Assembly: GCA_026169375.1 (NCBI GenBank)
Contig: JAPFCR010000008.1
Coordinates: 1 to 64,000 of the forward strand
From: Sporosarcina sp.
GTDB lineage: Bacteria > Bacillota > Bacilli > Bacillales_A > Planococcaceae
Length of the DNA: 64,000 nucleotides
Reading direction: 5' to 3'
In this document: one piece after another, positions 19,082-24,340 of the stretch
Layout: every line of letters starts with the position of its first letter
Position numbering within the stretch: position 1 is the first letter of the stretch
Program-made: the position numbers and the translations under genes
The notes under the pieces: generated by a model
What the model was told of the DNA's origin: nothing
Seen by the model: only the letters and a program-made list of their open reading frames with translations
Databases searched by the model: none

Positions 19082-20089
19082 TTAAAAATAAGTACGCACT
19101 TCATCAAGATTTTTTATTCCGTCTTTGCTCATCAATTTTAAAATAATCGATTGTAACGCGATTGCATCTAATGTTTGAATGCCCTCGCGAATATCATCTG
19201 GTATTTTTTTGAATCGTTCAATGAGACCTTGTTCTACAATTTCAACTTGTACCGTTTTTCTTTCTTCTTCTCTGCCTTCTTTTCTGCCTTCTTCTCTACC
19301 TTCTTCTCTCCACATATCCGCTAAAGTCATTGCGATCTCACTCCCTTCTTGATAATTCCTTTCCACGTCTTGTAAAATTTTCTGAACGTCTTTTTTCGTA
19401 AGATTTCGTGCGGCACTTGCAATATAACGAATCATCGTTTCAAAATATTCTATCCCAGTTTGGCGGTCTTCAAGCTCATTCAAATAGCTTACTGAACGAT
19501 GAAATGATTGTAAAAACTTCTCATTATCGGATGTAAATATATCGCGTAAAAGTGTTAAACCGATTCGCGTTTGTGCAACGCCTTTTATTTCTTCGTCTGA
19601 GTAGTCCGTAATGTCATATAATAAATATTCAAAGTTTGGTACATAAATTTTTAAGTCTTCTGGCAGTTCATTGTATCCGTTTAGTATATCGCCTAAACTT
19701 GAAGATATGCGCCAAGATGAATTTCCATGGAAAACGACAAGTGGTAGCACAACTGGTAAGCCTCCCATTTCTTTATCCATCTTTGCTTCCCAAATTTCAA
19801 TCATGTATCGCAAAACTTGAAAGGCAACTCCTTTATCGGGATAGCTTTTATGTTCGAATAAAAAATATACGTAGCCCTCTTCGTTTGCGATATTTGCTTT
19901 AAATAATAAATCAGAAAAGTTTTCGTCTAAATTGTTATCAATGAAACTATCCTTTTGTGGATCGAGTGTGTCAATGTCGATATATTTAACGATTGAAGCA
20001 GGTAAATAATTCGTAAGAAAATCTCCAGCTACTGTTACATTTCCAAAAGTTTCCTTGAAAAACTTATCGTGTGGATTATTTATATTCAT
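19082..20089 (-). CDS. Rpn family recombination-promoting nuclease / putative transposase (PD-(D/E)XK)
   Basis: MNINNPHDKFFKETFGNVTVAGDFLTNYLP...YVYFLFEHKSYPDKGVAFQVLRYM; low-complexity EEGREEGRKEGREEERK near the C-terminus. Confidence 0.85.
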   Translation of the reverse strand: MNINNPHDKFFKETFGNVTVAGDFLTNYLPASIVKYIDIDTLDPQKDSFIDNNLDENFSDLLFKANIANEEGYVYFLFEHKSYPDKGVAFQVLRYMIEIWEAKMDKEMGGLPVVLPLVVFHGNSSWRISSSLGDILNGYNELPEDLKIYVPNFEYLLYDITDYSDEEIKGVAQTRIGLTLLRDIFTSDNEKFLQSFHRSVSYLNELEDRQTGIEYFETMIRYIASAARNLTKKDVQKILQDVERNYQEGSEIAMTLADMWREEGREEGRKEGREEERKTVQVEIVEQGLIERFKKIPDDIREGIQTLDAIALQSIILKLMSKDGIKNLDEVRTYF

Positions 20090-20306
20090 AGACGGACATT
20101 CCTTTCCAACGAACGAGTTGTTAGTTCTATTATACAATTTTTAAACAATTGAATCCAATCGTAGCGACGTTCAAATAAAAATCCATTCGTTCAAACAAGA
20201 GCGAGTGGATTTTTTGTTTTTTAAAAATGTATCCTTTTTTATTTAACGGACTATATAGCTGATGAACAGGTTATACGCTTGGTTAAAAATAAAGGGGGAA
20301 AATAAA

Positions 20307-22442: not shown

Positions 22443-24292
22443 ATGATTATTAACAACAACATTGCGGCGTTAAACACACACCGCCAACTATCATTCAACA
22501 ACACGAACGTAGGTAAAAACATCGAGAAACTTTCTTCAGGTTTCCAAATTAACCGTGCAGGAGACGACGCAGCAGGTCTAGCGATTTCTGAGAAAATGCG
22601 TGCACAAATCAAAGGCCTAGACATGGCTCAGAAAAACGCACAAGACGGAATTTCTTTAATTCAAACTGCAGAAGGTGCACTAGCAGAAACACACTCGATT
22701 TTACAACGTATGCGTGAGTTAGCAGTACAATCTGCGAACGATACGAATATGGATGATGTTGACCGTGATGCAATGCAAGCTGAATTACAAGCATTAACGG
22801 ATGAAATTAATGATATTGCGGGAAGAACAGAATTTAACACGCAAAAATTAATTGACGGGAAATTCGATGGAGTATTCCACATCGGTGCAAACGAAGGGCA
22901 AAACTTAGCAGTATCTATTAATGCAATGGATGCAAGTGGTATTGGTTTAAATGATGAATTAACAATTACAACAGAAGTTGCTGATTATACTACAGCAAAA
23001 GCAACAGTAACTGGTTTAACAGGTTTAGGAGAAGTTAATGTTCTTAGAGATAATAACACTGCTGGTGCTGTTGTAGGTGTTGAAGTGGATGGTAAGTATT
23101 ACTCTACTAACGATGTTTCTATCGCGACAGCTGGAGATGTTACTGACGGTGTGGTAGTAGGTGATGCATTAATTACTGCAGGTGCTTCAGAACTTGATGC
23201 AAAAGCAACTACTGAAGAAACAGCTACTTTTAACGGTGTAGATATTAATAGCCGTGATGCAGCGAACGCATCGATTGAAATTATTAACAATGCTATCAAT
23301 ACAGTATCTACACAACGTGCAGACCTCGGAGCAATCCAAAACCGCCTAGAGCACACAATTAACAACCTTGGTGCATCTTCAGAAAACTTAACGGCTGCGG
23401 AATCACGTATCCGTGATACTGATCACATGCAAGTAGCAGCATAAAAACTGTGAAAGAAGCATGTAGTCGTCCAGACTGGTAACGGTCTGTGAGTATTATT
23501 GGGTGAATTGCTGGAACACCTTGCGAGAGCTTTTCTAACCACAGCGTAGTTGGAAACGACAAGCGCGATGGTTTAAAAAGAGAAAAGAGGAGGCAATCAG
23601 CAGCGAAGCCCCTGTCGGGAAACCGTGGGGAACGTTCAACGACTAGGATAGACCATCTAAAGCAGAAGCCATGATGATGAAATCCGTAGGGAAGTTAGTC
23701 TTGAGTAAACTAACGACTCGAAGCGCCCAACCCCTAATCAATAGCCACAAGTCATTGAAAGGGTGAAGAGATAGTCTAGTCATGTATGAGAGTACATGTC
23801 GCACGATGGCGAAAGAAATGATGGAGTTTACAAAGAACAACATCTTAACTCAAGCATCACAAGCAATGTTAGCTCAATCAAATCAGTTACCAAATGGAGT
23901 TCTTCAACTCTTACAGTAATTAGATTGTACGGGCGTCTATGTTAGTAATAATGTAGATGATCACTGGGTGAATTGCTGGAATATCCTGAGAGCTCTTCTA
24001 CCACAGCGGAACTGGAAACGGTAAACGCAATGGTTTGAAAAACGAAGAGATTGGACAATCAGCAGCGAAGCTCCTGTCGGGAAACCGTGGAGAACGTTCA
24101 ACGACTAGGATACACCGTCTAAGGCAAAAAGCTACGGCGATGAAATCCGTAGGGTGTTACATTGATAACATTCGAAGTGCCCAGCATCCTAACTTCTTTA
24201 GGATGAAGATATAGTCTGTACTATATTCGAAAGGTATAGTGGTATAGCAAGCTAACCAACAACCTCAGGGAGTATTACAATTACTCAACTAA
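22443..24292 (+). CDS. hag: Flagellin Hag, split gene: exon 1 22443-23423, exon 2 23806-23874 (or to stop 23919), exon 3 24248-24292
   Basis: Exon 1 MIINNNIAALNTHRQLSFNN...LTAAESRIRDTD; exon 2 MAKEMMEFTKNNILTQASQAMLA(QSNQLPNGVLQLLQ*); exon 3 QANQQPQGVLQLLN*. All joins in phase 0; both isoforms 364 aa. Confidence 0.88.
23424..23805 (+). ncRNA. Group I self-splicing intron 1 (382 nt, no ORF)
   Basis: P1: exon TGAT pairs with GTCG (23466-23469) with U.G at the splice site; P1 extension ACATGC/GCATGT. Core AATCAGCAGCGAAGCCCCTGTCGGGAAACCGTGGGGAACGTTCAACGACTAGGA. P7 GACTA (23641-23645)/TAGTC (23772-23776); P9 CATGTA/TACATG; terminal G. Precise removal restores RDTD|MAKEMM. Confidence 0.9.
23875..24247 (+). 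ncRNA. Group I self-splicing intron 2 (373 nt) containing an alternative flagellin C-terminal coding tail
   Basis: Core near-identical to intron 1 (AATTGCTGGAA..., CAATCAGCAGCGAAGCTCCTGTCGGGAAACCGTGGAGAACGTTCAACGACTAGGA); P7 GACTA (24103)/TAGTC (24212); P2 TCTATGTT/AATGTAGA; P9 ACTAT/ATAGT. 3' end GGTATAG lies 7 nt after P9, as in intron 1. P1 extension CAATC (23875)/GATTG (23923); U.G at GCT|. Confidence 0.85.
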
Positions 24293-24302
24293 TCGAGGGG
24301 AT

Positions 24303-24340
24303 AAAAACACGGTCCGCGCAAGCGACCGTGTTTTTGTTTT
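24303..24340 (+). terminator. Intrinsic terminator of hag
   Basis: AAAAACACGGTC...GACCGTGTTTTTGTTTT, directly after exon 3 stop. Confidence 0.85.

Follow-up and report, generated by a model that had tools for sequence, protein, structure and literature searches.

Two group I introns of a Sporosarcina flagellin gene contain conserved coding ends in their P1 loops

The window analyzed here is a stretch of 64,000 nucleotides from a Sporosarcina genome (contig JAPFCR010000008.1), and it carries on its plus strand a flagellin gene (hag) that is interrupted twice. Exon 1 (22443..23423, 327 codons, ending in ESRIRDTD) keeps an unbroken flagellin frame up to the GAT that provides the U of the 5' splice site. 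Intron 1 (23424..23805, 382 bases, omega-G at 23805) is inserted between RDTD and MAKEMM, and its first bases (23424..23444), which lie in the P1 hairpin and loop, extend the frame by HMQVAA and a stop, an end that resembles a C-terminal ssrA tag. Exon 2 (23806..23874) has 23 codons, MAKEMMEFTKNNILTQASQAMLA, and is followed by intron 2 (23875..24247, 373 bases, omega-G at 24247), which is inserted between MLA and Q. Within the P1 hairpin and loop of intron 2 lies a spare version of the last 14 codons of the gene plus TAA (23875..23919), here called tail A, which reads QSNQLPNGVLQLLQ. Exon 3 (24248..24292) is tail B, QANQQPQGVLQLLN and a stop; in-frame stops lie upstream, so it is translated only after splicing. 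As read from the sequence, a terminator-like hairpin, ACACGGTC...GACCGTGT, with a T-run is located 3' of exon 3 at about 24307..24340.

The joins were translated. With intron 2 kept, the product is a protein of 364 aa ending in QSNQLPNGVLQLLQ; with intron 2 removed, it is again a protein of 364 aa, now ending in QANQQPQGVLQLLN. Two complete, conserved, in-frame C-termini can be reached from one flagellin gene, and the tails are near-equivalent: 10 of 14 residues are identical, and both end in xLQLLx. If intron 1 is kept, a truncated flagellin of 333 aa ending in RDTDHMQVAA results. An earlier reading of the locus, made from the letters alone (the sequence-only reading), had described the tandem introns, the two alternative C-termini of equal length and the single terminator, and all of its coordinates, frames and peptides proved exact when the joins were reread and translated; the conserved coding end of intron 1 was absent from it.

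Both introns match the group I covariance model RF00028, intron 1 with 72.7 bits (23453-23798) and intron 2 with 80.1 bits (23916-24239). The gathering score of this model is 50, and the conserved core (P3 to P8 with the GTP site) is accordingly present in both, as the sequence-only reading had proposed. A U.G pair at the 5' splice site within P1 and an omega-G at the 3' end are also found in both. In intron 1, P1 is formed by GAU (23421-23423) and GUC (23466-23468), with U23423.G23466 as the splice-site pair, and is extended by ACAUGC (23425-23430) with GCAUGU (23459-23464); in intron 2, GCU (23872-23874) pairs with GGC (23932-23934), with U23874.G23932 at the splice site, and the extension is CAAUC (23875-23879) with GAUUG (23923-23927). 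Inside either intron, no open reading frame of 60 aa or more was found on the coding strand, so neither contains the homing endonuclease gene of a mobile intron. Both introns of the window are presumably self-splicing in this organism. Exon skipping is known for tandem group I introns (PMC10136302), and here it would join RDTD of exon 1 to QANQ of exon 3 with loss of exon 2, which is unlikely. Elsewhere in the window are two Bacillaceae-1 RNAs of unknown function (RF01690; 15750-15816 and 21248-21314, 68.4 and 62.7 bits) and a TPP riboswitch (RF00059; 32869-32971, 74.1 bits). The 351-aa open reading frame at 19082-20137 on the minus strand appears to resemble the Rpn (recombination-promoting nuclease) family.

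P1 pairing was then compared across loci. The exon triplet and the internal guide sequence (IGS) of intron 2 co-vary: exon GCT is found with GGGC or GGGT, and exon TCT, which encodes Ser in place of Ala, is found with GGGA. The position of the 5' splice site directly after MLA is thereby fixed. The P1 extensions also follow their partners. At the intron 2 site (site 2), the mean duplex energy over 139 loci was -5.68 with the own partner and -3.72 (standard deviation, 0.14) with re-dealt partners, and for intron 1 (39 loci) the values were -5.48 and -3.63 (standard deviation, 0.26). The opening codons of tail A are paired with a segment 3' of its stop, and since this pairing co-varies, the tail A codons must lie inside the P1 hairpin and loop. 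Pairing with the guide region places a constraint on codons 3 and 4 of tail A.

The sequence-only reading had treated the two-tail layout as a case unique to this genome. This was not borne out, since the layout recurs in more than 100 genomes of Bacilli and Clostridia. A whole-region search of 264 family genomes, with inspection of the loci, gave 58 family loci with two tails; a search of the order to which the window belongs covered the same 264 genomes. The loci inspected have both introns, intron 2 alone or intron 1 alone, and the intron 1 site between RDTD and MAKEMM is shared by many relatives. GTDB species genomes were scanned for a flagellin tail, a stop and an intron core 38 to 66 bases further on. 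At least 119 stretches matched, at least 103 of which are true flagellin loci of named genomes. Among the matches listed are, from the Bacilli, several Sporosarcina as well as Geobacillus, Parageobacillus, Anoxybacillus, Heyndrickxia, Exiguobacterium, Planococcus, Oceanobacillus, Brevibacillus, Paenibacillus and many others and, from the Clostridia, Clostridium, Fusibacter and Caloranaerobacter; the base before tail B is G, the omega-G, in all 99 readable loci among these listed matches. A pattern that knew only the 3' end of the intron and exon 3, and was therefore blind to tail A, was run on two sets of 401 genomes each, one from the class and one from the phylum. The 35 loci fetched comprised 29 with a complete tail A, 5 with short (A/V)A-stop ends and 1 decayed remnant without exon 2. 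Since 29 of 35 loci have both tails in this blind test, the two-tail layout is the rule at site 2 and not an effect of pattern selection. Sampling of the order of genome G833 revealed nothing new. The occurrence of the same layout in the 58 family loci, the at least 103 loci of named genomes and the 29 blind loci is far beyond chance, and recurrence in the family, GTDB species and class and phylum scans rules out an oddity of a lone genome.

Selection was measured by pooling all pairs of the 58 family loci, with kinship ignored and 14 codons per tail. On this basis, tail A (47 distinct sequences) has a pS of 0.67, a pN of 0.17 and a dN/dS of about 0.11, and tail B (40 distinct sequences) has a pS of 0.67, a pN of 0.06 and a dN/dS of 0.035; exon 2 has a dN/dS of 0.14. 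Judged from these ratios, purifying selection is acting on both tails, and tail B is the more conserved one, which agrees with the selection on both tails argued for in the sequence-only reading. Tail A consists of 14 codons plus TAA in all 58 family loci, and the 15 bases after its stop show no codon periodicity. Within loci, tail A and tail B differ with a pS of 0.85 and a pN of 0.19. Synonymous sites are thus saturated, and the two copies must be old and independently maintained; a recent tandem duplication of the tail, against which the sequence-only reading had argued from codon usage, is excluded. Tail B is conserved behind in-frame stops and, therefore, in-frame splicing between MLA and Q is required.

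These data bear on the idea that only one of the two outcomes matters, either with intron 2 as a passenger at the 3' end of the gene, tail A as the real C-terminus and exon 3 as a remnant or, in reverse, with tail A as a nonfunctional P1 loop. In genes that have intron 2 only, the tail A frame alone resembles an intact flagellin gene, and splicing may therefore seem dispensable. But strong purifying selection on both tails speaks against either version, as do the greater conservation of tail B, which is readable only after in-frame splicing, and the decay of tails in degenerate flagellin copies, one with a frameshift in tail A (L014, genome G184) and one with a stop in tail B (L064, genome G227). 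We regard a single relevant outcome as highly improbable.

Intron 1 does not contain a spare tail. In 75 distinct intron 1 starts, the frame after RDxD is kept and gives 5 to 6 residues and then a stop. Each of the 75 starts has Ala as its final residue, preceded by another Ala in 73 of them and by Val in 2. The most common peptide is YALAA (34 of 75), and others include YALVA and the HMQVAA of the window. All four Ala codons are used in the last position (GCT, 25; GCG, 23; GCA, 15; GCC, 12). ssrA tags commonly end in LAA, with LVA, AAV and SVA as variants in use (PMC9382460), and the genome's own tmRNA encodes the tag GKTNNNLAFAA. All 75 starts have an ssrA-like end of the LAA type with Ala as the last residue. 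By analogy, ClpXP or a protease of this kind probably degrades truncated flagellin with such a tag.

In intron 1, the Ala codons are often part of a small hairpin with an NUAA loop, and part of the GC-GC-UAA conservation could thus be due to RNA structure. If the hairpin (GC-GC-NUAA-GC) were needed for folding of P1, the AA-stop ends would be by-products without a role in proteolysis. Indeed, the two Ala codons pair with each other and the stop lies in the loop in 49 of the 75 starts. However, the pairing register varies in intron 1 and the peptide end is kept all the same, and other insertion sites have, as read from their sequences, other loops (GCAU, GCCUAA and CGCGUA) with the same peptide end. 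Moreover, the same ribozyme family works at site 2 with an end that reads LLR-UAA, and introns of the nrdE type end differently. An origin of these ends in hairpin folding alone is therefore doubtful.

The (A/V)A end recurs at three sites of the flagellin gene. Apart from intron 1, tail-less introns were seen at site 2 and at a third site between ML and A, after ATGCT and four bases upstream of the intron 2 site, and all 19 of them end in (A/V)A-stop. At site 2, two Bacilli have introns without tail A whose retained ends are MLAQFEQVA-stop and MLAQLLVA-stop. Three Clostridia (L271, L272 and L273) have introns at the third site, with the retained ends MLEGLAA-stop, MLEVRWAA-stop and MLEVLAA-stop. 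All five introns belong to RF00028. Metagenomes were scanned for flagellin introns with a short distance from exon to core and without any constraint on the peptide, and 14 of the 14 true flagellin loci found in this way end in (A/V)A-stop. As controls, we used 30 group I introns of the family that interrupt genes other than flagellin, which by sequence are mostly those of ribonucleotide reductase, and only 2 of the 30 have an (A/V)A-stop end. This excludes AA-stop as a general trait of bacterial group I introns. It is also unlikely to be a requirement of the ribozyme, since the tail-bearing introns end in LLR-stop. Many group I introns of the family reside in apparent ribonucleotide reductase genes (within L276 to L304), some of which have two (L289); the intron of L276 resides in an unnamed gene, and its retained end is WPVA. 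In a tree of the intron cores, in which deep support is modest, three changes among the tail-bearing introns are required to explain the degron form at site 2. Because of these three changes, spare tail and degron appear to replace each other, but with recombination between the 5' part and the core of the intron, the degron form could have arisen independently on fewer occasions.

Since site 2 carries a spare tail in some lineages and an (A/V)A end in others, the simplest purpose common to both is that translation of unspliced mRNA is made harmless. We therefore favor, at odds of roughly two to one, the explanation that the P1 loops encode fail-safe ends, a spare tail or a degron, for the translation of unspliced mRNA. 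P1 loops of self-splicing group I introns would have been converted to coding ends that are used whenever the ribosome outruns intron removal. Intron 2 lies 14 codons before the end of flagellin, where a full spare copy with its stop would fit into the P1 loop. Flagellin would then be full-length in either case, with tail A from unspliced and tail B from spliced mRNA, and both tails would be incorporated into filaments. Intron 1, at 37 codons from the end, is presumably too far away for a spare tail. Its P1 loop would cap the truncated flagellin with a peptide that ends in (A/V)A-stop, similar to the ssrA (tmRNA) tag, and the tagged product would probably be destroyed by ClpXP-type proteases before it poisons export or filament growth. 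On balance, we also lean toward a rule that would apply generally to the group I introns of flagellin genes in Bacillota and by which their P1 loop would be a translated quality-control cassette that holds a complete spare exon where the remaining exon is short, which would make splicing optional for the host, and a built-in degron of the ssrA type otherwise, with the two solutions interchanging at the same site during evolution.

The sequence-only reading had seen in the two tails a switch of the flagellin D0 tail. Its two C-termini, both under selection, stand, but a regulated D0 switch fits less well than protection against translation of unspliced mRNA, given the alternation of degron and tail at site 2 and the constant (A/V)A end of intron 1. 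A regulated switch would make the retention of intron 2 depend on temperature, growth phase or the rate of translation, and the tails would differ in D0 or chaperone-binding properties. It would account for two distinct tails that are both selected and were never homogenized. Flagellin introns are reportedly spliced in a temperature-dependent manner, going by the title of Hayakawa and Ishizuka 2012. There is also a precedent in Clostridium tetani, in which distinct isoforms of an S-layer protein are encoded by the spliced and the unspliced transcripts of a gene with a group II intron, although apparently constitutively (PMC3919590). However, the near-equivalence of the tails, the differences in tail A among lineages at codons 2 to 8 and the presence of a degron-like end instead of tail A at the same site in other lineages make regulation unlikely. 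A switch of tails is possible, but it is not needed to explain the data, which the fail-safe ends accommodate.

A literature search, beyond whose reach Hayakawa and Ishizuka 2009 and 2012 lay, revealed no description of the spare tail or of the intron 1 end. The flagellin introns of thermophilic Bacillaceae (Hayakawa and Ishizuka 2009, 2012; cited in PMC3984707) share host gene and intron class with those described here, and the two-tail layout likewise includes Geobacillus, Parageobacillus and Anoxybacillus; as far as the citing paper (PMC3984707) conveys, they were described as self-splicing introns only. In the S-layer gene of C. tetani, unspliced and spliced transcripts also differ in the C-terminal parts they encode, but C.te.I1, a group II ribozyme for which several 3' exons serve as alternatives, has neither a spare copy in a group I P1 loop nor a degron (PMC3919590). 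A stop just inside a bacterial group I intron keeps ribosomes off the ribozyme core (PMC3073962, PMC3984707), and the early in-frame stop is the same here. The novelty lies in the conservation, at the protein level, of the codons that precede the stop in the flagellin introns, whether a whole tail or the (A/V)A end. Like the proposed intron tag, the C-terminal LAA-like ends added in ssrA tagging mark incomplete proteins for proteolysis (PMC9382460), but tmRNA acts in trans, whereas the tag here would be encoded in the DNA of the intron and added by ordinary translation.

In the flagellin gene, where ribosomes trail the polymerase, splicing cannot always come first. If the proposed explanation is true, it shows how selfish ribozymes persist in a gene that ranks among the most heavily translated in bacteria. 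To our knowledge, a fail-safe at the protein level would be a first for group I introns, and a degron encoded by an intron would be a first for bacteria. It would also reveal a widespread hidden exon that can be overlooked in annotation because the tail A frame resembles an intact flagellin gene, and in harmless laboratory species a direct test would become possible of how group I splicing can coexist with translation, which is an old question.
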